A DNA stretch of 64,000 nt from Pseudomonas sp. HR96 (GTDB lineage: Bacteria; Pseudomonadota; Gammaproteobacteria; Pseudomonadales; Pseudomonadaceae): assembly GCF_034059295.1 (NCBI RefSeq), contig NZ_CP139141.1:1533001-1597000 (forward strand), written 5' to 3'. The notes beneath the pieces were generated by a model, which saw only the letters and a list, made by a program, of their open reading frames with translations, did no database searches and was not told where the DNA came from. The stretch's first letter is position 1, and every line of letters begins with the position of its first letter. Positions 4,551 through 19,859 of the stretch are shown here, one piece after another. The translations under genes and the position numbers were made by a program.

Positions 4551-4678
4551 GGGGGGCCTCCGGTATCCAGGAGATCCTGGCTGCGAAGGTGGTTGGGTTG
4601 AGGGGCCAATGCGTGAACGGCAGGCAGCTTTTTGACATGTCCTTGATCCTCTGGTCGCTTCTTAGGGCGTTGATTGGG

Positions 4679-4756
4679 TGTCGGGAGCTAAGAAACTCAC
4701 CAGAGACGAGCCGGACATATTTCCCTTTCGGGTCTTGTATTCGCCCACTCCCGACA
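4679..4756. repeat. Inverted repeat TGTCGGGAG / CTCCCGACA
   Basis: 9-bp arms at 4679-4687 and 4748-4756. A second copy of TGTCGGG at 4811-4817 could pair with the same right arm instead. The right arm abuts the neighbouring repeat at 4739-4780. Confidence 0.5.
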
Positions 4757-4929: not shown

Positions 4930-5370
4930 CTATTTCGAGGGTTTCCCCGACAGCGCTGCCCGCTGCTGTTCTAGCTGGTCCGAAAGCTTCTCCAACGCCT
5001 GGCTGTCTTCCTTGAGCTGACATTCCCAAATAATCAGCACGTTCCATCCGCTGGCTTCCAACGCTTGAATGTTGTTGAGATCGCGCTCTACGTTTTTCAG
5101 GAATTTGTCATTCCAGAATTCTGCTCGGGTTTTGGGTGTGGTCGCATAGCGGCACCCCACGTGGCGGTGCCAAAAGCAACCGTGTACGAACAGGCAGGTC
5201 CTGAGCTTGGGCAGTACCACATCGGGGTTGCCAGGGAGATCCTTGCGGTGAAGCCGGAAACGGTAGCCGTTTGCGTGCAGGAAGCTTCTTACCAGCAGTT
5301 CAGGTTTGGTGTTCTTCCCGCGTATCCCTGACATCATCCGTGAGCGGGTAGCTGGATCGACTACATCCAT
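4930..5370 (-). CDS. vsr: Very short patch repair endonuclease Vsr
   Basis: 146-residue strand-specific endonuclease that nicks beside T:G mismatches arising when 5-methylcytosine deaminates, and so protects sites methylated by a C5-cytosine methyltransferase. The family signature is complete: the N-terminal DPATRSRMMSGIRGKNTKPE segment, the catalytic aspartate D50 in GNPDVVLP, the HGCFWHRHVGC metal-binding cluster (63-73), EFWNDKF and ERD, and the GWNVLIIWEC strand. The start is set at 5370 by AGGAG 7 nt upstream; the frame extends further but without support. It is transcribed away from the Z1 operon. Its likely partner methyltransferase lies 8 kb away at the other end of the island. Confidence 0.95.
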   Translation of the reverse strand: MDVVDPATRSRMMSGIRGKNTKPELLVRSFLHANGYRFRLHRKDLPGNPDVVLPKLRTCLFVHGCFWHRHVGCRYATTPKTRAEFWNDKFLKNVERDLNNIQALEASGWNVLIIWECQLKEDSQALEKLSDQLEQQRAALSGKPSK

Positions 5371-5518
5371 TCTATTCTCCTGAAGCGGTATCTTTGAGCG
5401 GGGCCGAATGAGAACCGTAGGTGTCTTCACCCTCTTCTTAGGGGGCGGATCTCGGGGGACGTTCAAACGCCTGACCGGCCCCGGCATTGCAGGAATGTTG
5501 GGGCCCAAGGCAAGGGGG

Positions 5519-5548
5519 ATGACCAGCAAAAAATACTTGGCTGGTCAT
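5519..5548. promoter_or_regulatory. Inverted repeat between vsr and the Z1 operon
   Basis: Perfect ATGACCAGC / GCTGGTCAT arms with a 12-nt AT-rich loop, in the middle of the 301-bp divergent region. It is well placed to be an operator for a regulator of both units, or a leader hairpin of the Z1 transcript. Confidence 0.45.
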
Positions 5549-5671
5549 GCCGGACATCCCGGTTGCGGGTTTTTGCAAGGCGTTCTGTGCTGTGCGACTA
5601 TTCTTGGCCCTGACTTGGATGTAGGGCGGTCTCCCTGTTCAAGTCATCTTCAGAACACAGAAAGGATGCTC

Positions 5672-8500
5672 ATGGCTGATTACACTATTGACCCAGCGTA
5701 CGACAAATGCCGCGCGTTTATCGATGATTGGCGGCTCAAAGGCCGTAGCTGGGAAGAGATCGCCAAGCTCGGCCGGTTGGGGGCGTCACCGGAAAAGCTC
5801 GATGACTGGTTCCTCGCGCAAGAGGAAATGCAGGATTGGCCTTCACTGGGAGATAGTCCGGAAAAGCGTTTCGAATGCTGGAAGGAGATAGTGAATCGCA
5901 AAGAACAGGCCGAAGCCCAATCTGTCGCGGCGGCGAGGCCTTTGATTATCGTTGGAGCAGAGGAGACTGAGCCCGGCATGGCGGTGCCTCAAGACGCGCG
6001 TAGCGCATGGCAGCTTTATAGAAAATACCTGATCGCCCAAGGCTGGAAGCAACCTGCGGTCGATAACATTCAGGGATCTGCCGTACGCGTCCTCCGGCAT
6101 CTACGGCAGACCACCAAAGATAGGATGGCTGTTAAAGGCTTGGTCGTCGGCCACGTTCAGTCCGGCAAAACGGCCAACATGGCAGGTCTGATTTCCATGG
6201 CAGCCGACTATGGATGGAATTTGTTCGTCGTTCTGACCGGTACGCTCGAAAATCTGCGTATACAGACCAATAAGCGTTTAGTGGGTGATTTGTTTCAGCA
6301 TGATGGTAATGTCACCTGGAAGGCGATCGATCATCCATCTGGCAACAGTCCGTACGGGGCTCGCGCACAGGACATGCAGTTCGATGCCGGCCGTCGAGAC
6401 CGACATCTCGCTGTTTGTCTCAAGAACCCTGCGCGATTGAATCATCTCATTGCGTGGATCAAGGCTCACCCGCACGGGATGTCGCAGATGCGCCTGGTGG
6501 TGATTGATGACGAGGCGGATCAGGCCGGCATCAACTCGAATGATGTTTTGAAAGCTGAGCGAACAAAAATCAATGGGCTCATTCTTAAGTTGATCCGGCT
6601 ACCTCTCCAATGCGTGAACTATGTCGCCTTCACCGCTACGCCTTCCGCCAATTTTCTGAATGAGGGCCCTGGCGACACTCTGTACCCGAGCGATTTCATC
6701 GCAGCGCTGCCACAGGCGGACGAGCACTTCGGGCCTGTGCAGATTTTCGGCTATGCCGAAAACGAAAGGTCGCCGTTGGGAATTGTTCTTGAAGTATCAG
6801 ATAACGATTTGAATCAAGTTGGTAAGCTTCACAAGGGGGAAAGTCTAAAGCTGCCAAAGGCATTGGAAGAGGGGCTGATCTGGTTCCTATGCTGCGTGGC
6901 CGTGATGCGGCAGTCCGTTACCGCCAGACCCGTCAGTATGCTGATCCATACCAGCGCGAGGCAGTTGCATCACGACCATATGAACAAAGCGGTGCACAGT
7001 GCGCTCAGGACTTGGTCACAATACTCGGAGGAGCAATTGGCCGATGCTTTTAAGCCTGTTTGGGACAAAATCTCGTCCGGTCTGGATGCCGATGGGTTCA
7101 GAGAGCGCTTTCCAGATTACGGGCGCCTGTCTGAACTCGTCGAACTGCCGTTATTTGATTCATTCTTTCCTGAGATTCGGACTCTTCTGGATGAGGTTAC
7201 GGCTATTAAGCTAGACGCGGACTCTCAACCCAGGTACCACAAAGGTATCCATATCTGTGTTGACAACTGCGCTAATAATGGAGTAACTGATGAAAATGAG
7301 GTCCGTAGATTGTTTTACCCGGACGCAGCGCAGCAGTTGGATTTTTGCACTGCCTTCATCGTCATTGGCGGCGGAACGCTTTCACGCGGCTTAACAATAG
7401 AGAATTTGGTTAGCACCTTTTTCCTGCGAGGCTCTGCGCAAGCAGATTCTCTCATGCAAATGGGACGATGGTTTGGCTACCGGAAAGGCTATGAACTGAT
7501 ACCTCGCATCTGGATGTCGACCGAGACGAAAAAAAAATACGAGTTCATGGCTGTTGCCGAGGAGGAGCTTCGGGACGACCTTGAGCGTTTCATGCACGGT
7601 GGGGCCAAACCTGAAGATTTTGGGCCTCGGGTTCGTGTACATCCAAAGTTTGCATGGATTCGGCCAACCAGTGCTAATAGGATGCAAAGCGCTGTGAATA
7701 CGAAATACGACTTTTCAGGTATCAACAGGCAGACAACGGTTTTCCACGATGGGGAAGGTGCCGCCTCGATCCTGGACGCGAACCTAAAGGTAACGGAAAA
7801 ATTTCTCGGTTCATCAGATGCTCACCTTGAAAAGTCTCAGTTGAAGGGCGCAAACAGCTATGTTTGGCGGGGCGTCGACGTTAGCCGCGTAGCAGATTAT
7901 TTGGCCGAATTGTCGTTCCATCCGGGAAATCAGTTTTTCTCCGACATGGGTGCCTTTCTGAAATGGCTCGGCGAGCATGCAGATAACGCAGGATATACAA
8001 AATGGAACGTCGTGATGGCTGGCAGCACGCCGAACCCGGATAATTCCTGGGAAATCTCGGGCAAGGCTGTCGGCCGAATCAATCGTAGTAGGTTGATTAG
8101 TGAACGTTCGGATGACGGTGTCTCCATTGGTGCGTTGCGAGACCCAAAGGATTTGCTTGCAGATGCCTGCAACCTTGCTCCCGATAGCATTTCCAAGATG
8201 AAATTCACCAGTTCTTCCATCTCGAAGAGTCGCATCGAGGGTGGAGTTGGCGCAGTACCACAATTGTTGATCTATCTAATCGACAAGACGGGTAACCGCG
8301 GACTGCAAGAAAAAGCAATTCTTGATCCAAAGGCAACGCGGGCACCGCTCATGGCTAAGGCAAACATTATCGGTGTAAGCATTTATTTGCCGGGCTCCCA
8401 AGGCGCCCAAAAGAGTTATGTCACCCACGTGACAGTGAATATCCCCGATAGCTTCAAGGCTTCAGAAGAAGACCTCGAAGAAGCGCTAGGCGCGGTCTAA
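5672..8500 (+). CDS. Z1-domain superfamily II helicase/ATPase (defence island)
   Basis: 942-residue P-loop protein, probably the DNA-translocating motor of the island system. After an N-terminal helical region (1-120) come Walker A GHVQSGKT (G160-T167), a helicase Walker B variant VVIDDEAD (D279-D283) and motif III-like FTATPSANFL. The Z1 domain occupies the C-terminal half with its hallmark GGGTLSRGL (566-574) and the motif VI-like QMGRWFGYR (596-604, arginine-finger candidate R599). ATG 5672 is preceded by AAAGGA 5 nt upstream; ATG 5666 is also in frame. The frame upstream to 5408 has no support. Three bases separate its stop from the next gene. Z1 helicases are known next to GHKL ATPases and PD-(D/E)XK nucleases in restriction-modification-like clusters. 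Confidence 0.9.
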   Translation: MADYTIDPAYDKCRAFIDDWRLKGRSWEEIAKLGRLGASPEKLDDWFLAQEEMQDWPSLGDSPEKRFECWKEIVNRKEQAEAQSVAAARPLIIVGAEETEPGMAVPQDARSAWQLYRKYLIAQGWKQPAVDNIQGSAVRVLRHLRQTTKDRMAVKGLVVGHVQSGKTANMAGLISMAADYGWNLFVVLTGTLENLRIQTNKRLVGDLFQHDGNVTWKAIDHPSGNSPYGARAQDMQFDAGRRDRHLAVCLKNPARLNHLIAWIKAHPHGMSQMRLVVIDDEADQAGINSNDVLKAERTKINGLILKLIRLPLQCVNYVAFTATPSANFLNEGPGDTLYPSDFIAALPQADEHFGPVQIFGYAENERSPLGIVLEVSDNDLNQVGKLHKGESLKLPKALEEGLIWFLCCVAVMRQSVTARPVSMLIHTSARQLHHDHMNKAVHSALRTWSQYSEEQLADAFKPVWDKISSGLDADGFRERFPDYGRLSELVELPLFDSFFPEIRTLLDEVTAIKLDADSQPRYHKGIHICVDNCANNGVTDENEVRRLFYPDAAQQLDFCTAFIVIGGGTLSRGLTIENLVSTFFLRGSAQADSLMQMGRWFGYRKGYELIPRIWMSTETKKKYEFMAVAEEELRDDLERFMHGGAKPEDFGPRVRVHPKFAWIRPTSANRMQSAVNTKYDFSGINRQTTVFHDGEGAASILDANLKVTEKFLGSSDAHLEKSQLKGANSYVWRGVDVSRVADYLAELSFHPGNQFFSDMGAFLKWLGEHADNAGYTKWNVVMAGSTPNPDNSWEISGKAVGRINRSRLISERSDDGVSIGALRDPKDLLADACNLAPDSISKMKFTSSSISKSRIEGGVGAVPQLLIYLIDKTGNRGLQEKAILDPKATRAPLMAKANIIGVSIYLPGSQGAQKSYVTHVTVNIPDSFKASEEDLEEALGAV

Positions 8501-8503
8501 CTT

Positions 8504-10546
8504 ATGAAATATCACAGCCTTCCATTGCAGCCTATGCAGGAATCCGGGGCATACCTCCTTCGTGCTTTACAGAACGAAGAAACCCCTCTGCTTGATTTGC
8601 TAGTCCGGGAATCCGTTCAGAACGCGCTAGACGCAGGATGCAAAGGGAAACCAGCTCTGCCAGTTTCGGTTGATTTCTATATTCGTGACCACTCTGTGAA
8701 TGCCATCGCTTCTACATTCGGTGAGGGGCTTAACCAGCAAGTTTTTGCAACACGCTTTCCGCGCGCTCAAAAGCTTCTTGAGATCCGCGATTCAGGGACT
8801 GAGGGGCTGACGGGCCCGATGACTTTTGAAGGCGTGGAACCGCATGGCCAACACGGCAACTTTCTCAAGCTTGTGTTCGAGATTGGTCGGACCCGAAGCG
8901 ATGAGGGTGCAGGTGGATCATGGGGATTGGGCAAGACCTGTTACTTTCGGATGGGCGCAGGCTTGGTTATCTACTATAGCCGAATCAGGGTCGGCGAAGA
9001 GTATGAAGAGCGGCTAGTGGCCTCTATCGTTGAGGACGAAAATCGTGTAGATCGGCTTCAATTGAACACCCAAACAGGTATTGCCTGGTGGGGAGCAGAA
9101 GGAGGCTTGGGTGCAATCACTTCCCCATCCCATATCCACGAAATTCTTGATGCGTTCGATGCCAAACCTTTTACCGGTAAGCAAACTGGCACAGCAATCA
9201 TTATTCCGTTGCTCAAGGAGAAGCTGTTGCCCGTTTTCGACGGGGAAAGGGGCGCTACGCCATGGTGGTACGGTGATTATGAAAGTTATATAGCGGTTTC
9301 AATTCAGCGTTGGTTTAGCGCACGTCTGGATAACCCATTCTTCGCTACCGGTAGGTATCTGAAAGCGTCGGTGAACGGCAAAGAACTAGCTCACTTTGAA
9401 ATGTTACCGATATTTCAGGTTGCCCAGAGTTTGTATAACCGCGCAATGAGCGATACGGCTAAGGAAGACTATCTGACCGGCAAAGGTATCAAGAGCGACC
9501 ATCTGCTCTCCAAATCAATTCAACTGCGCGGTGAATTCGTAGGTAGTGGTCTGGCAGGTCGCCTGCTTGCTGTAGCGCTGACCCCGCGTCAGCTACAAAT
9601 GGATGCGCCCGACAATGCGCCCAGCCCGGAAACATGCATTTTCTCACGGGCCGACTGCGGTGCACCCCATCGACCCGTAGTAACATTCATGCGGTCTCCG
9701 GGAATGAATATCTCTTGGGACGACAGCCTTGACTCCCGGAGCTGGGCGGGTGGGTTTGCTGGGTTTCCTGATGGCCGATACGTTGTGGCGCTGTTTTTGC
9801 CTGATTCGGAACAAGAATTACAGGCGTCAGAAGCCCGCGGCTTGCGCTCGACAATACAGACTCTCGAAGGATATCTCCGGAGCTGTGAACGTGCGGATCA
9901 TGGCGCGTGGGTCGACATCAGCGGTGGACGTGTCATTGAAAAGATTCGCGCTCAGTGTGGCCGGGCCATCAAAGACTTCGGGTCACCGCCTACGCCCAGC
10001 TTGAAAGTCAAACCATCCATGCGGATGTCACGCAAGCTTGCTGAACTCGTATTACCCAACCGTGGATTTGGCGGGGATGGACGTTTTGGCAAAGCAGCGC
10101 CCCGAGCAGCTGCTACCCATATTTCCAAAGGCGCTGCAGTACCTTCACCGGAGCTGGAAATCACAGAGCTTGGATATGAAGATGATGCGATCGTCATGAA
10201 ATGGCGATTGAGCTGGGGAATGCTGCACCAAGGTATGCCTAGGGATATCTGTGTTTCCGTAGACTCCGAAGGTGGCCCAATCACCTTTGACACTTGGGTC
10301 ACGAACAGACTTGGCGCGTTTCCGTTCCATCTGGATTCATTCAAGCTTAGCGGTTCAGCTATTACTGTTGGAAGTGTCGGAATCGATGGTGGAACAGGTG
10401 TAAGGCTCACTTTGACTGGTCCGGCGATAGAGTCGGGTTTGATTTTCGAAGGAAAACTTCACGTCAGGATGAGTGATTCGGACCGCAAGCTATTGCGGCC
10501 CGTGATCGGGGTCCGGATTTCAGATGGAGGTGGAGCTGCGAAATGA
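8504..10546 (+). CDS. GHKL ATPase of the MORC/paraMORC (MutL-like) class
   Basis: 680-residue protein with an N-terminal GHKL (Hsp90/MutL/gyrase B-type) ATPase fold. The N-box is RESVQNALDA (E36, N40, D43), the G1 box EIRDSGTEG (D96, G98), and a glycine-rich ATP lid GAGGSWGLGKT spans 135-145. The remainder (250-680) is probably the transducer and partner-binding region; residues 540-680 look like a beta-rich C-terminal domain. Proteins of this type work beside SF2 helicases and nucleases and are thought to clamp or reorganise DNA in an ATP-dependent way. It starts 3 bp after the Z1 stop and overlaps the next gene by 4 bp (ATGA), so it is translationally coupled. Confidence 0.88.
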   Translation: MKYHSLPLQPMQESGAYLLRALQNEETPLLDLLVRESVQNALDAGCKGKPALPVSVDFYIRDHSVNAIASTFGEGLNQQVFATRFPRAQKLLEIRDSGTEGLTGPMTFEGVEPHGQHGNFLKLVFEIGRTRSDEGAGGSWGLGKTCYFRMGAGLVIYYSRIRVGEEYEERLVASIVEDENRVDRLQLNTQTGIAWWGAEGGLGAITSPSHIHEILDAFDAKPFTGKQTGTAIIIPLLKEKLLPVFDGERGATPWWYGDYESYIAVSIQRWFSARLDNPFFATGRYLKASVNGKELAHFEMLPIFQVAQSLYNRAMSDTAKEDYLTGKGIKSDHLLSKSIQLRGEFVGSGLAGRLLAVALTPRQLQMDAPDNAPSPETCIFSRADCGAPHRPVVTFMRSPGMNISWDDSLDSRSWAGGFAGFPDGRYVVALFLPDSEQELQASEARGLRSTIQTLEGYLRSCERADHGAWVDISGGRVIEKIRAQCGRAIKDFGSPPTPSLKVKPSMRMSRKLAELVLPNRGFGGDGRFGKAAPRAAATHISKGAAVPSPELEITELGYEDDAIVMKWRLSWGMLHQGMPRDICVSVDSEGGPITFDTWVTNRLGAFPFHLDSFKLSGSAITVGSVGIDGGTGVRLTLTGPAIESGLIFEGKLHVRMSDSDRKLLRPVIGVRISDGGGAAK

Positions 10547-11499
10547 GCACTCGACTGCCACTATATCGAATGTTGAATGCACCGCTTGGCAGGAGTAACG
10601 AACCAGCGGTGGACTACCTATTTTTATCAGATGAAGGTCTAAATCCAGGTGCGACCGAAGTCAACGGCAATCAATATGCCTTGGGTAAGGACAGCGACTG
10701 GAATCCGGCCGAACACCCTTTGGCGGTTCAATGTTTAATTCACCGGGCTCCATTATTGCATGCCATATTCGGTCCAGAGGGGGTAGCCGGCAGTGGCACC
10801 GAGGTGTTATTGGCGCTGGAGTGGGCATCCGCTGACTCATGCTGGCGAGCGCTAGGACCGGTTCATGGCTTACGACACGAAGATGGGGGCATCGTAGCGT
10901 TGGATATCACCTTGGAGCCGGGGACCGTTAGAGGTAGTGGTTTTCTCTCCGTTCAAGCGTTCCTCGGCAAAAGCCAGACAGATTCCGCTCCCGGATTTGC
11001 TCAGCAGGCAGGCGCCAGGCTAGGCCCATTGACCCAGCTTGTTGAAGTCGTAATTGACGGGGACGGCTCTCTTTTCCCGGTTCTGGAAGAGTCATTGGGT
11101 GCGGAGGGGCCATTATGGGAATTGAAAGCGTGCTGGAGCGACCCCCAGGATGAGCCGTTCTCCAGCGAATACGTTGCTCTTGTGCTGAACAACGCTCACG
11201 CGCATTTTGACCAGTTACGCGACAGGGGGGGGCTTAACTTCGAGCAGTCTCCGCTGTTGCGCCAAGTCTTCGCCGCGTGGCTGGCACTTGTCGTTGCTCA
11301 GGTCAAACACGATATGGGAGCAGATTTCGATACGTATCTGGCCGCGCCTGATGTGGACGACGGATTCGGAAGTATTGCTGACGCTGTGCGGTCGTTCATT
11401 CGGTTAGGCTCTCTGAATACCGCCTCGCTCAACGAGTTGTTTGTGTCAACTCAATGCTGGTTGGATCAGCGAGTTCGGGATTTGGAGAATGTAGAATGA
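10543..11499 (+). CDS. Uncharacterised protein of the MORC-Z1 operon
   Basis: 318-residue protein with no domain I can name. Residues 1-200 look beta-rich (alternating hydrophobic stretches such as TEVLLALEW, IVALDITLEPG and LVEVVIDGDG). Residues 205-318 look helical (EYVALVLNNAHAHFDQL, LRQVFAAWLALVVAQVKHDM, IADAVRSFIRLG). There is no signal peptide, transmembrane segment or obvious catalytic motif. It overlaps the GHKL gene and the next gene by ATGA four-base overlaps, so it should be made in fixed ratio with them. It is probably a structural or adaptor subunit linking the ATPase to the nuclease; this is inferred from position only. Confidence 0.75.
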   Translation: MSTRLPLYRMLNAPLGRSNEPAVDYLFLSDEGLNPGATEVNGNQYALGKDSDWNPAEHPLAVQCLIHRAPLLHAIFGPEGVAGSGTEVLLALEWASADSCWRALGPVHGLRHEDGGIVALDITLEPGTVRGSGFLSVQAFLGKSQTDSAPGFAQQAGARLGPLTQLVEVVIDGDGSLFPVLEESLGAEGPLWELKACWSDPQDEPFSSEYVALVLNNAHAHFDQLRDRGGLNFEQSPLLRQVFAAWLALVVAQVKHDMGADFDTYLAAPDVDDGFGSIADAVRSFIRLGSLNTASLNELFVSTQCWLDQRVRDLENVE

Positions 11500-12194
11500 G
11501 CTTCCCCACCCTGAACCTTAAACTTTCGCTGCGACGCTATAACGAAATGGTCAAAGGCGATGCATTTCTTCCCGAGGCGTCTAACGCAGAGATGGAGGAA
11601 ATTCGCCGGCAGCTCTTCGCCGTCGTATCGCTGTACGACTCCATAAAGAAGGACACCGCTTCAGGTCCCGGCGCCTATGACATTCGGGTTGGCCTCGCTC
11701 TGTACCAGGTACTGGCGGACGCAGGCATAAGCATTCGTACTGCCGCAGATGACGGCTGGTGGAGATTTCTGTCTTTGCGTGTGTTGCCTGACCTGGTCAA
11801 GAGTCGCTGGGACGGCGCCCCCCCTGTTAGATTCTGGAAGGGGCGAAGCCGCATCTGGTTACGCGCGATGTGGTGGACGGTCCACCTGACTTGGCAAGGG
11901 AACCAGGAGAATACTCGCAGAGTGCTTGAGAGCGTGACCACTGACACCGTCGTTCAATTAGTAGAACGGCCCGGCAAGGGCGGCTTCAGGATTGAGCTGA
12001 CACGGCTTATTTTCAGCATGCGTCAGCACCGCAAGCCTTCTCAGGATCAGTTCAGGGCAATCATGAAACTCAATACAGCTCAGATCGTGCTGAAGGAACC
12101 TGCATTCTGCGACGGGGGCCTGCATGGCTATGTGGATGCGCTATTCACGGACGTAGGTTGCGCGCCTGTCCTTCCGGATCTCAATCATGACTGA
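11496..12194 (+). CDS. Uncharacterised protein of the MORC-Z1 operon (possibly DUF6339-like)
   Basis: 232-residue, mostly helical protein rich in tryptophan in its middle (GWWRFLSLRVLPDLV, RSRIWLRAMWWTVHLTW), followed by a TDTVVQLVERPGKGGFRIEL segment. It resembles the DUF6339 proteins found in similar clusters, but I hold that assignment loosely. The ATG at 11496 overlaps the upstream stop (ATGA); an earlier in-frame ATG at 11454 would lie inside the previous gene. It overlaps the nuclease gene by 8 bp. No catalytic motif is seen. The aromatic basic surface could bind DNA or a partner; that is a guess. Confidence 0.75.
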   Translation: MSFPTLNLKLSLRRYNEMVKGDAFLPEASNAEMEEIRRQLFAVVSLYDSIKKDTASGPGAYDIRVGLALYQVLADAGISIRTAADDGWWRFLSLRVLPDLVKSRWDGAPPVRFWKGRSRIWLRAMWWTVHLTWQGNQENTRRVLESVTTDTVVQLVERPGKGGFRIELTRLIFSMRQHRKPSQDQFRAIMKLNTAQIVLKEPAFCDGGLHGYVDALFTDVGCAPVLPDLNHD

Positions 12195-13101
12195 ATTGCT
12201 GAAAGAAATTCAAGAGGGCTTTGCCAATCTCGATCAAAGCGGCCGAATGCTGCCGCTCAGGGCTATGCCAGTAGATTGTGCCGCATGGGTCTTCAGGGAG
12301 GGAACAGCCTTCGGAGTAGCTATTGAGTGTTCTGCAGCCCTGGAGCTCTCGGAAGGCTTCGCTGGCGCCAAGCTACGGACCGTGGACCGAGTCATCAGTC
12401 AACAGCACCGACGCTTCCTGCGGTTGGAGTCTTCTATAGAGTGGCTCCGCAACGAATTCGGCGTAATCTGCGCGCATATGGTTAGCGTCGAGGCCGGTGC
12501 CAGTGTGCGGCAGGCGCTGCTGGCTGATCCTCTGAACTGGTGGGAGCGGTGGCGACATCTCTTGGGTAATGCGGTCGTCGACAGGCATGGTTATGACGTA
12601 CTTGCTGAGCTTTTAGCGCTGGAAACGCTGGTAACGGGGGGCGCTATTTATGAATGGAGTGGGCCTTTTGGGGGCGTGGTCGACATCAAGACTTCCGAGA
12701 CCGACTACGAAATCAAATCAACCATCAGTCGATATGGAACTGTGATAAATATATCCGGGCATTTCCAATTGGCTGCCTCTTCGGGCAAGCCATTGCAACT
12801 GTTGTATTACAGGTTCGAACCGGCTCATGATGGCCTTTCGATCGATCTGGTTTGTGACCGACTTATCGCGCTTGGGGTGGACGCTGTGCTCCTCGAGACA
12901 GCGCTGCAACGGCTTGGGATGGAAGCAGGGTGCTCTGCAAGGAAAGAGGGCTACAACCTGCTTGAAAGTCTATCCTATGCGATCGATGAAAATTTTCCGA
13001 AAATAACTCCGGCGAGTTTCAAAGGCGGAGTACTTCCTCGCGGTATTGTTCAGTTCGAATATAAAGTGGATCTTAGTGGCCTCAATTCTTCACCGCTATA
13101 G
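12187..13101 (+). CDS. PD-(D/E)XK nuclease family protein (DUF4420-like)
   Basis: 304-residue putative restriction endonuclease. The core is visible as a helix with a conserved glutamate (LAELLALETL, E141), the strand WSGPFGGVVDI with D166, and YEIKST carrying E175-x-K177, followed by a further strand and helix. This spacing matches DUF4420, annotated as a PD-(D/E)XK family member, and suggests a metal-dependent DNA cleaver. It is the last gene of the overlapping operon and would be the cutting subunit, with the Z1 helicase and GHKL ATPase as motors and the downstream methyltransferase marking self DNA. Cleavage activity and target are inferred. Confidence 0.82.
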   Translation: MTELLKEIQEGFANLDQSGRMLPLRAMPVDCAAWVFREGTAFGVAIECSAALELSEGFAGAKLRTVDRVISQQHRRFLRLESSIEWLRNEFGVICAHMVSVEAGASVRQALLADPLNWWERWRHLLGNAVVDRHGYDVLAELLALETLVTGGAIYEWSGPFGGVVDIKTSETDYEIKSTISRYGTVINISGHFQLAASSGKPLQLLYYRFEPAHDGLSIDLVCDRLIALGVDAVLLETALQRLGMEAGCSARKEGYNLLESLSYAIDENFPKITPASFKGGVLPRGIVQFEYKVDLSGLNSSPL

Positions 13102-13445
13102 CTAAATGGTTGAACTATTGGAGCAACTTGAAACTTAACGGCAGGAGCTGCTTGCATTCCTGCTCATCAAGCAATCTAGGGCAGCCCAGAAGGTTGCCCG
13201 TTTGCTAAGCCATATCTCGTAAAAAACTGAGCCGCTGATGTTCAAGGCTGTGCTTTAGCCCTGCGCTGACCTAGGGTAAGGATCAGGCCGGCCCGGAAGC
13301 CGGGTTTGTAGGTGCGGCTTACCCCGGCCCGTGCAGCCAGAATCGATCTGCAAAGGCTTCGACGTGGCTGCGCCTCTGCTCCAATCCTGGTAAAGTAACG
13401 GGGCTCGGCTGCCTATTGTGTTGCCATCACTGATTTTTTTGACAA
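13102..13445. other. Intergenic region before the methyltransferase
   Basis: 344 bp without a supported gene. There is a short GGCCCGG/CCGGG hairpin followed by TTTG near 13290 and weak inverted repeats. It presumably holds the terminator of the nuclease operon and a separate methyltransferase promoter, letting methylation be expressed independently of cutting. I cannot place a clear promoter. Confidence 0.4.
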
Positions 13446-15095
13446 ATGAAGCCCATGATTCAATACCAGAATAGTCTTTTCCCGCCTAGGGTGGCCACCG
13501 AGCCAGCAGCTGCAGTTGAGCACGCTATCCAGATCGTCGACCTTTTCGCTGGTCCTGGCGGGTTGGGCGAAGGTTTTTCCTCGTCTGGTGAGGGTAGGCG
13601 CTTCGATATCATAGTTTCTGCCGAAATGGACCCTGTCGCTAGAAAGACCCTCAAGCTTCGTGCCTTCTATCGTCTGCTCAAGCGGGAGTTCCCTGAAGGG
13701 TTGCAGGATTACTATCGGTATTTCAATGGTGAGGCGCCCGAGCCTTATACTGATGCAACCGCGAAATTTTGGCATTACGCTGACTTGGAAGCGCGGCAGA
13801 TCACCTTGGGTTCACTCGAAGGCGATAGGGAGCTTAATCATTTAATTAAGGAAAGGTTGAACAGCGATGGGCGGCCATGGGTCCTCATCGGCGGCCCGCC
13901 ATGCCAAGCGTATTCAATCGTTGGTCGGGCGAGGAATCAATCGAAACTAGGTTACATCCCTGAAAATGATCACCGGCATTTTCTCTACAAAGATTATTTA
14001 CGTATCATCAAGGATTATCGGCCAACTGTTTTTGTCATGGAAAACGTGAAGGGAATACTGTCTTCAAAAGTTGCTGGGAAGGGTATCTTTTCGCAGATTC
14101 TGAACGACTTGGTAGATCCTACTAAAGCTCTAGATAATATCGAAGGCGGGCAAAAATATAAAATTTGCTCTATTGTTTCAGAAGAGTCATTCAGCCCTTC
14201 AGACTGCATAGACAAAATAAATCCAAAGTCGTTTATCATTGAGGCTGAAAAGTATGGAATTCCCCAAGCCCGACACCGTGTAATCCTTTTAGGGATAGCG
14301 CTCGATGAACAGGGCAATGTACCCTCGCATGATCTTTTGACACAGGTCGAGCCAGTCTCAGTAAGTCAAGCGATTGGCAGTCTCCCAAAGGTGAGAAGCA
14401 AGCTCTCTCGCAGTTACGACCCCTACGATGCATGGTATCGCACGGTGGCGGACGAAGTAGATGACTTACTGAATCATGCACAGCTGGAAAACGGAAGAAT
14501 GGTCGCACCATTGCGCGCTACTCGCGAAGCACTGTTTGATGCGCCGCTAACTTCGGGTGCTGACCGCGTCCAAAAAAATCTTGGCGAAGGCTATACAGGC
14601 ATACCCTCATTGGATGCTTGGTATCAGGACTCGAATATCAAATGTTGGCTGAGTCATGATTCTCGAAGTCACATGCGATCGGATCTGCGACGGTATGCGT
14701 TTGCAAGTACTTTTGCGAAACACTACAAGTATTCCCCGAAAGGGCACCTAGAGTTTTCATTACCAGGTCTGGCACCGGCCCACAAAAACTGGGAGAGTGG
14801 AAAATTTAGTGATCGCTTCAGGGTTCAGCTCGCCTGGCTTCCGGCAACTACGATTACAAGCCATATCTCCAAGGATGGACATTACTTCATTCATTATGAT
14901 CCAGCCCAATGTCGAAGCCTGACTGTTCGTGAAGCAGCTCGGCTTCAAACATTTCCGGATAACTACTACTTTGAAGGGAATAGGACGCAGCAATTTCACC
15001 AAGTAGGTAATGCGGTCCCACCTTTATTGGCAAACAAAATTGCTGAAGTTGTCTATCATGTCATTTGTCGGCGAGCTGCCGAGGGAAAAACCTAA
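13446..15095 (+). CDS. DNA (cytosine-5-)-methyltransferase
   Basis: 549-residue C5-cytosine methyltransferase that moves methyl from S-adenosylmethionine to cytosine in a specific DNA site. The ordered motifs are motif I DLFAGPGGLGEGF, motif IV GGPPCQAYS with catalytic C153, motif VI ENVKG, motif VIII QARHRVILLG, then a variable target-recognition region (about 310-480) and motifs IX-X (RLQTFPD, QVGNAVPPLLA). It is most likely the self-protection enzyme of the island. It is longer than a minimal enzyme because of an insertion between motifs I and IV. ATG 13446 has no clear Shine-Dalgarno; ATG 13455, nine bases on, is an alternative. AT content is above the flanking core genes, suggesting transfer. 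Confidence 0.93.
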   Translation: MKPMIQYQNSLFPPRVATEPAAAVEHAIQIVDLFAGPGGLGEGFSSSGEGRRFDIIVSAEMDPVARKTLKLRAFYRLLKREFPEGLQDYYRYFNGEAPEPYTDATAKFWHYADLEARQITLGSLEGDRELNHLIKERLNSDGRPWVLIGGPPCQAYSIVGRARNQSKLGYIPENDHRHFLYKDYLRIIKDYRPTVFVMENVKGILSSKVAGKGIFSQILNDLVDPTKALDNIEGGQKYKICSIVSEESFSPSDCIDKINPKSFIIEAEKYGIPQARHRVILLGIALDEQGNVPSHDLLTQVEPVSVSQAIGSLPKVRSKLSRSYDPYDAWYRTVADEVDDLLNHAQLENGRMVAPLRATREALFDAPLTSGADRVQKNLGEGYTGIPSLDAWYQDSNIKCWLSHDSRSHMRSDLRRYAFASTFAKHYKYSPKGHLEFSLPGLAPAHKNWESGKFSDRFRVQLAWLPATTITSHISKDGHYFIHYDPAQCRSLTVREAARLQTFPDNYYFEGNRTQQFHQVGNAVPPLLANKIAEVVYHVICRRAAEGKT

Positions 15096-15156
15096 GCAGA
15101 ATCAAAGAAAATGATTCAGTGTTTCCCATCGAGAGGGAGTTTATAAATCATATGAA

Positions 15157-15183
15157 ATAACGGCGCTGAGTTAGCGCCGTTAT
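15157..15183. terminator. Hairpin after the methyltransferase gene
   Basis: Perfect 11-bp stem ATAACGGCGCT / AGCGCCGTTAT with a GAGTT loop, between the methyltransferase stop and the convergent ATPase stop. It lacks a U-tract. A second 7-bp repeat (AGGTGGT / ACCACCT, 15207-15227) follows. Together they probably serve as a bidirectional transcript end. Confidence 0.6.
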
Positions 15184-15245
15184 GGTGATTTGCTCAAGTT
15201 ACTATCAGGTGGTTATTTAGACCACCTTACATAGAATATGAGGAG

Positions 15246-17048
15246 CTAAACAACCGGTTTTTCAGAAATTTTATCTTTGGTGATACTATTTCCGCATGCA
15301 GGGCACATATTTTTTTCCCAAGCGAATTTCATGGTTTGAGTTATTTCAAAATCGCAGGTAGGGCACGGAAACATTACGCCTTCCCTCAATTTTCGCTGTT
15401 TGATCAGCGTGCAAGGGTTGTATATATAACGCCGCACTCGGTTGTGAATATCTTCATATTTTGTTATGAATTGAAACTTTTTGTCTTTTTGGTGGTGGTC
15501 GTATGTGCAGGAGTAACTCAATGCATATATTGAGAGCTTGTTGGATATATTTGTGTCTTTGGCGCTGATTCGATCAGTCCTCTTGTGAAGAAGCCTCTGG
15601 TAGATCAGCTCTGAAAAATCGTCTTCAGCAAGAGCGGAATGGTTTTCGGCACTTTCCTCGACTGCTATATGGCTAGTCTTGTTTTTTATAGCAAAATCTT
15701 CAAGGTGTCTCCAAGCTGACATAGCATTCGAGCGGGCTTGGATATTTAGAAGTTTTTTCTCTCCGTCAGATTTTATCGCATCTTTGATCATGACTGCTGA
15801 GACATACTGATAAGCGCCACCCCTTTTTAGAGGTCTGTTTCTATAAGTGACAAATTCGTTCCACGCATGTACCAAGATGGTGCCGAAATCTCTCGGATTA
15901 CCCATTGAGCCCATAATCAGCAGTTCAAAGTTCTTTTTGCTATTGATCAGCACCGAGTTTGAAATGTCCGGACGATGCAGATGGTGTTGTAATCGTTTAT
16001 CGATAAAGTCTTGAAAATATTTAATGCAAGATTGCTGATCAGTCTCATATATTAGAGATTCATCCAAGTCAATCAGGTGTTGCAGGTCATTGCCGATCGA
16101 CAGTGGATGCAAGTTACCACGATAAGGAAAATATGCAATCCAAAAATAAATGGGATTATCTATGATTTTATTTATATATGTTGCTAGATATTTTTGGGAG
16201 CTGCCTTCATAGTAAAGTTTTTCCCATTCGTCAATATAAAAAGTAATGGATTTAATTTGTAGCGTGCTAATAATTTTTTTTATTATCTCGGACACATGTG
16301 ATATGTCTAGGTAGCTGATGAATTTCGTGGCTTCATCTTTGGTAATATTGCGTTCTGCCACAGATTTCTTTTTCGCAGAAAGACCGAACGAGGCAGTACT
16401 AAGCCCGATCTGAGCCGACATCTCTTCAAATGCCTCTATCAAGTCCTTCAACTGCGTATTGATTTTTTGTTCGCCTGCTTCATAATTCTCGATGATACGA
16501 GTTCCTGAAAGCAGTGCATCTTGCGATTTCAACAATATCTCGATCGTTTCTGCCAGTCGTTTTCCGATCGATTGAGGAGTGGCTTTGTCAAGCAGTCTAT
16601 TCCAAAATCCTTGCTTTGATGCAATAACTAGTATTTTCTGAAGGTGCTCTGAGATCCCAGTAAGTATGAAGCTAGAGAAAAGTCTGTTGAAAATCTCTTG
16701 AGTGCAACCCTCCGGAGTTGTTAATTTTTTTGAATTTAGATATATTGTTAAATTGCCATTCTCGAATATGTCTTGATTGATATTATGTCGGGCAAGTAAG
16801 AACAGATGGGTTTTGCCGGTCCCTCTGAGACCTTGGATAACACCACTCGACGAACCAGTGTGGGAAATAAGCTTATTAAGATGATCCTTGATTTCGACGT
16901 GTGTTTCAGCTAGTTCCGTAATTTTTTCTGCTGATGCCTCAAGACTCAAATCAAAATCTGCTCTCAAGTCAGAGAACGATTGTGTGATTTTTTGAACCAG
17001 GGCTGGGTCTTTAACGATGTCTCTTAGCTTTGTTTTTTGGATAGCCAT
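15246..17048 (-). CDS. AAA-type ATPase with C-terminal zinc ribbon (ORC/Cdc6-like)
   Basis: 600-residue P-loop ATPase. Walker A is GLRGTGKT (G73-T80) and Walker B is FYIDEWE (D273-E274), separated by a long helical insertion. A PRDFG motif lies near residue 390, and the C-terminus ends in a CPTC-x16-CPAC zinc ribbon (C562, C565, C582, C585). The layout resembles ORC/Cdc6-type or STAND-like ATPases used as sensors in defence loci. Base composition is strongly AT-rich, unlike everything around it, including the rest of the island, so it arrived separately. It converges on the methyltransferase gene. The Shine-Dalgarno is weak. The exact role (regulator, motor or stand-alone defence gene) is unknown. 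Confidence 0.8.
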   Translation of the reverse strand: MAIQKTKLRDIVKDPALVQKITQSFSDLRADFDLSLEASAEKITELAETHVEIKDHLNKLISHTGSSSGVIQGLRGTGKTHLFLLARHNINQDIFENGNLTIYLNSKKLTTPEGCTQEIFNRLFSSFILTGISEHLQKILVIASKQGFWNRLLDKATPQSIGKRLAETIEILLKSQDALLSGTRIIENYEAGEQKINTQLKDLIEAFEEMSAQIGLSTASFGLSAKKKSVAERNITKDEATKFISYLDISHVSEIIKKIISTLQIKSITFYIDEWEKLYYEGSSQKYLATYINKIIDNPIYFWIAYFPYRGNLHPLSIGNDLQHLIDLDESLIYETDQQSCIKYFQDFIDKRLQHHLHRPDISNSVLINSKKNFELLIMGSMGNPRDFGTILVHAWNEFVTYRNRPLKRGGAYQYVSAVMIKDAIKSDGEKKLLNIQARSNAMSAWRHLEDFAIKNKTSHIAVEESAENHSALAEDDFSELIYQRLLHKRTDRISAKDTNISNKLSIYALSYSCTYDHHQKDKKFQFITKYEDIHNRVRRYIYNPCTLIKQRKLREGVMFPCPTCDFEITQTMKFAWEKNMCPACGNSITKDKISEKPVV

Positions 17049-19259: not shown

Positions 19260-19859
19260 TCAGCCGTAGATAGCTTGTCCGACGCAGCGCTCGAAGCAGC
19301 GTGTCAGGCCGGAGTAATCGCAGACGACTGCATCTATGTTCGCTTGAGTCCATTGCTCTTGATCTATCGCCCACCAGCTGATTTCGTAGCCGGCATGGAT
19401 GATGATATGTTCGAACAGGATGCGTAGCGCACGGCCGTTGCCGTCTCGAAAGGGATGGATGACGTTCAGATCACCAAATAATTGCGCACTTGCACTGATA
19501 AGCCCCGCGCGATCAAGCCCCGAAAAGTAGGCCGCTCTGGCTAGGCTACCGAATAGTTTTTCAGCCTCGGGCTCTATTCGCCCAACTGTACAGAAGTGGG
19601 TAGTGCCTTTGGATATTTCCACGATGCGGATTTCCCCTGCCCAAGCGTACAGGTCGGCAAAGAGATGCTGGTGGATTCGTCGCAAGCACGCTAGATCATA
19701 CGGAGGAGGGGAAAACTCGAGCTCGTTCGCCGCAGCTGCGGACAAGTCGCGTTCAGCCAGGTTGAGCACTGGTTCGCTTTGAATGTGCAGCTTGTTATCG
19801 AAAACCGATGTGCCGGGGTAACAGTAGGGATCTTGACCGATACCGTACTTGTCGAGCAT
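19260..19859 (-). CDS. fic: Fic-family adenylyltransferase toxin
   Basis: 199-residue Fic-domain protein that transfers AMP from ATP to a target protein. The complete active-site loop HPFRDGNGRALR spans 135-146, with catalytic H135, phosphate-binding D139/N141 and R143. The flap region (TTHFCTVGRIEPE) that positions the target side chain is present. There is no internal inhibitory helix, which makes it a class I Fic controlled by a separate antitoxin, encoded immediately upstream (stop TGA and start ATG share one base). Related Pseudomonas Fic toxins AMPylate DNA gyrase subunit B; the same target is inferred here. The pair splits nrdA from nrdB. Confidence 0.93.
   Translation of the reverse strand: MLDKYGIGQDPYCYPGTSVFDNKLHIQSEPVLNLAERDLSAAAANELEFSPPPYDLACLRRIHQHLFADLYAWAGEIRIVEISKGTTHFCTVGRIEPEAEKLFGSLARAAYFSGLDRAGLISASAQLFGDLNVIHPFRDGNGRALRILFEHIIIHAGYEISWWAIDQEQWTQANIDAVVCDYSGLTRCFERCVGQAIYG

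Follow-up and report, generated by a model that had tools for sequence, protein, structure and literature searches.

The island analyzed here is flanked by nrdB on one side and by a BRO-N gene on the other in Pseudomonas sp. HR96, within a stretch of 64,000 nucleotides (contig NZ_CP139141.1, positions 1,533,001 to 1,597,000; hereafter the window, whose own coordinates are used below). The initial annotation had proposed a defence system consisting of five joined genes beside a C5-cytosine DNA methyltransferase and a vsr gene. This gene set is real and intact, and it is conserved in relatives: our survey covered 82 loci (numbered L005 and so on), and the platforms (core genes) of 73 loci were typed for nuclease, methyltransferase and Vsr. 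The genes are as follows.

4930..5370, minus strand: vsr, very-short-patch (VSP) repair endonuclease, 146 amino acids from the likely start (TIGR00632, 142.9 bits; PF03852; PDLC03397)
5672..8500, plus strand: superfamily 2 (SF2) helicase (PF10593, E 4.9e-48; MzaC model, below its cut-off; motifs)
8504..10546, plus strand: GHKL ATPase with paraMORC2 signature, 680 amino acids (GHKL motifs, ExxxH; PDC-M33A, E 2.1e-8)
10543..11499, plus strand: U1, 318 amino acids, predicted beta-sandwich N-terminal part and helical C-terminal part (no family match)
11496..12194, plus strand: U2, 232 amino acids, predicted all-helical (weak relative of DUF6339 / PDC-M33C)
12187..13101, plus strand: DUF4420 PD-(D/E)XK nuclease, 304 amino acids (PF14390, 64.1 bits; MzaD model, below its cut-off)
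13446..15095, plus strand: C5-cytosine DNA methyltransferase, 549 amino acids (PF00145; TIGR00675; PPCQ, ENV and QARHR motifs)

Core proteins and the exchange of the nuclease

The domain assignments held in profile searches, which returned PF10593, PF14390, PF00145 and the Vsr families, and the GHKL motifs are present. In the DUF4420 nuclease, residues E141, D166, E175, K177 and Q194 are invariant among 29 aligned rows, the window included. In 14 of the 73 platforms, the nuclease slot is occupied by a phospholipase D (PLD)-type restriction endonuclease homologous to R.NgoAVII. Thus, in one clade DUF4420 is swapped for an unrelated protein at the same gene position.

The C-terminal domain of the helicase carries the DThhQXuRhFG motif of the third operon type of Iyer, Abhiman and Aravind (2008), with S replacing T. 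In the GHKL protein, the ATP-binding motifs are ESVQNALD at 36 and GGSWGLGK at 137; their key residues are invariant in 20 aligned rows, as is ExxxH (E462, H466), in a region whose S5 fold is assumed. The S5 motif of MORC proper, GhXhhpXXRhl, had no pattern match in this protein. The class of defence system had been rightly guessed at the outset, but the ATPase, then called MORC-type, is probably better read as paraMORC2, and an additional ATPase gene that had been counted in is dropped as a component (see below).

AlphaFold2 models were obtained for the two remaining proteins. For U1 (mean predicted local distance difference test, pLDDT, 85.8; predicted template modeling score, pTM, 0.57), the N-terminal part is predicted to be beta-rich and resembles many immunoglobulin-like domains, none of them specifically, and the C-terminal part is helical and lies outside the region covered by structural matches. 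The U2 model (pLDDT 89.0, pTM 0.85) is all helical and had no significant match in PDB. Five of 39 U2 relatives matched PDC-M33C at E ≤1 (best 4.3e-6); the E value for U2 of the window was 0.11. In a Chlorobiaceae bin (L017), two GHKL-U1-U2 sets adjoin each other.

Together with the methyltransferase, the five-gene machine would form an ATP-driven restriction system. We consider it likely, from the gene content, that the island encodes such a system, and the five-gene machine probably cuts foreign DNA.

Methyltransferase and Vsr as possible partners

A C5 methyltransferase gene was found within the platform or no more than 1.5 kb away in 63 of 73 loci, in many Bacillota placed between the U2 and nuclease genes, and 52 of the 73 had Vsr at a distance of up to 8 kb. 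This association, and the fact that the restriction enzyme family of the PLD form (NgoAVII/CglI type) has a cognate C5 methyltransferase according to the available part of the literature on it, argue against another explanation, to which we give a minor but real chance. It holds that the system is a DNA-degrading defence, modification-independent or modification-dependent, which senses phage DNA structure or foreign modification, and that the methyltransferase and Vsr are hitch-hikers at the site.

Several observations favor this alternative and weigh against a restriction system with its own methyltransferase. No methyltransferase was seen within 1.5 kb in 10 of 73 platforms (L011, L014, L042, L046, L050, L051, L053, L075, L078 and L079). 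For one Bacillota clade, a whole-genome search detected C5 methyltransferases in all nine genomes, on the same contig as the platform, at a distance of ~0.7 kb in L070, 1.2 kb in L037 and 3.7–16 kb in the other seven. In both loci tested (L050 and L070), these methyltransferases have as neighbors genes with matches to REase_II models of PADLOC; clusters of the same genes are also seen close to the methyltransferases of L051, L053 and L078, and that of L079 is near a PDC-M26A match. The methyltransferases of this clade are 23–90% alike between loci, whereas the core proteins have 79–86% mean identity, with at least 60% in every 30-residue window (seven loci; six for U2 and nuclease). Further points against the restriction reading are that neither nuclease type was seen in two of 73 platforms (L015 and L084), no recognition domain was identified in the DUF4420 form, and none of the five core proteins had a convincing PDB relative by sequence (best E at least 0.2). 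Because some methyltransferases are distant or have foreign partners, some platforms may be without a dedicated methyltransferase, and a simple one-to-one pairing is doubtful.

We also considered whether the methyltransferase itself sets the specificity of restriction. Five methyltransferase types occur in 13 loci and are discordant with the core phylogeny. When core segments were tested for tracking the methyltransferase type, 8 of 518 windows of L010 favored same-type loci (by no more than 0.03), as did 48 of 504 windows of L011 (by no more than 0.15); about half of the windows did so in L008, L009 and L018, a single-clade comparison that says little. Types A–D have in common a similar stretch, which we take to be the recognition domain, ahead of the C-terminal motifs; their specificity may thus be the same. 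The type E enzymes show 66–95% identity to the L123 methyltransferase, a neighbor of an EcoRII-family gene; those of L011 (82%) and L014 (95%) are close to the L123 enzyme, and a weak EcoRII-like match (27–30% identity) was found near both, with none at L015. Together with the REase_II linkage in Bacillota, these observations mostly explain the idea away, leaving only the 10 of 73 platforms that have no methyltransferase close by. A separate lineage for Vsr of the window was likewise dropped: it is 51–65% identical (local alignment) to Vsr of the closest relatives and 61–63% identical to those of L014 and L123, and differs from them in position only.

It is very improbable that the island serves mismatch or deamination repair, with a MutL-like GHKL protein, helicase, nuclease and Vsr acting on 5-methylcytosine deamination in a VSP-like manner and no anti-phage role. 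The available part of Iyer et al. (2008) does point out a parallel between the GHKL, nuclease, helicase, Vsr and Dcm set and MutL, UvrD, Vsr and Dcm, but the distribution is patchy (among 397 further genomes of the genus, five have a match of at least 48% identity), the location is among defence genes, and a restriction endonuclease fills the nuclease slot in the 14 relatives mentioned above.

The nrdB/BRO-N site and its other contents

The stretch beyond nrdB was read at 20 selected places in 19 genomes of the same genus. A BRO-N homolog was located 0.4–15 kb from nrdB in 12 of them and was absent from eight. Open reading frames (ORFs) of the site were profiled with PADLOC (ten) and Pfam (eight). 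The cargo comprised an EcoRII-family gene accompanied by a methyltransferase and Vsr (L123), a PDC-M38A/AriA-like ATPase (L118), GmrSD/NsnA (L124), an ORC-CDC6-like ATPase (L125), and an AAA protein with weak REase_II matches (L126). L119 (13662-19358) had an SNF2 helicase, Vsr, a C5 methyltransferase and a match to MzaB, which we take to belong to the GHKL family; this set resembles the second operon type in the available text of Iyer et al. (2008). Non-defence contents were also seen, i.e., a permease at L115 and a thiamine pyrophosphate enzyme at L126, and L114 was nearly empty (397 bp). Among ten stretches bearing the system, both nrdB and BRO-N were present in six (the window, L009, L010, L012, L014 and L016), BRO-N only in L008, and neither in L005, L007 and L018. 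These data support the view that the nrdB/BRO-N stretch is a site collecting defence genes. The terms nrd and ribonucleotide were absent from the main text of a paper on Pseudomonas aeruginosa hotspots (PMC12629846).

At 4672-4755 on the minus strand, just upstream of the BRO-N gene, lies an sRNA-Xcc1 RNA (Rfam RF02221), the sole copy found in its genome. It was detected in ten of 14 other site loci scanned (L118, L120, L115, L123, L125, L008, L016, L012, L014 and L009) and missed in L114, L121, L010 and L126. The first ATG lies 28–35 nt past the RNA and opens an ORF of 17–32 codons in nine of 11 cases and the BRO-N frame itself in two, an arrangement that would suit a leader RNA of BRO-N. In Xanthomonas, sRNA-Xcc1 occurs upstream of symE in integron cassettes, according to the available part of PMC12444791.

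The additional ATPase mentioned above is probably a neighbor rather than a component of the system. Of 82 loci searched with its profile, only the window gave a match, and the gene was present in one of 110 related genomes, namely its own; its lower GC content fits a separate arrival. The list of its homologs has 119 members, itself included, from Pseudomonas, Bacillus, Clostridium and others. An ORC-CDC6-like label (PF24389), precomputed for four of the 119, is unsure: P0242, which is among these four, did not show it when scanned directly with Pfam at E 0.001, and neither did P0253. An ORF at 19260-19859 on the minus strand contains the stretch HPFRDGNGR, presumably a motif as in Fic proteins.

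Comparison with known systems

The Mza system was reportedly described by Gao and colleagues in 2020. The possibility that the island is a diverged form of it is slight: the likeness is limited to MzaC (NF041933; 229.8 of 1500 bits) and MzaD (NF041934; 48.8 of 420), far below the equivalog cut-offs. No other Mza model was matched by nine window proteins at E 0.01, including the PADLOC model of MzaB that matched L119; MzaA and MzaE gave no match either, the presence of their models in the libraries being unconfirmed. The window operon has U1, U2 and a methyltransferase instead. The likeness to the PADLOC candidate PDC-M33, whose models come with no cut-off, is partial and weak, with the GHKL protein matching PDC-M33A, U2 relatives matching PDC-M33C and no match for U1. 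As for DISARM, the best match of the methyltransferase is DrmMII, but the other eight of the nine window proteins scanned match no Drm model.

A close counterpart is the third operon type of Iyer, Abhiman and Aravind (2008), which in the available text comprises an SF2 helicase with the DThhQXuRhFG domain, MORC/paraMORC, a nuclease of the restriction endonuclease fold, Dcm and Vsr. The island shares with it the helicase motif, a putative paraMORC2 ExxxH, the nuclease type and the Dcm and Vsr neighbors, and a hotspot location was also suggested there. U1 and U2 as constant members and the NgoFVII-type nuclease are absent from the description in that text.

In the full-text literature, whose coverage mostly leaves out subscription papers and where some results were swamped by unrelated words, we found, among the results listed, no experimental work on this operon beyond CglI/NgoAVII. 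CglI, as presented in the available parts of PMC4267653 and PMC5737866, is a three-gene system lacking GHKL, U1 and U2, and the R protein of CglI/NgoAVII is PLD-B3, whereas the window nuclease is DUF4420. The replacement of the nuclease in relatives is the most useful new fact and ties an uncharacterised system to the biochemically studied CglI and NgoAVII.
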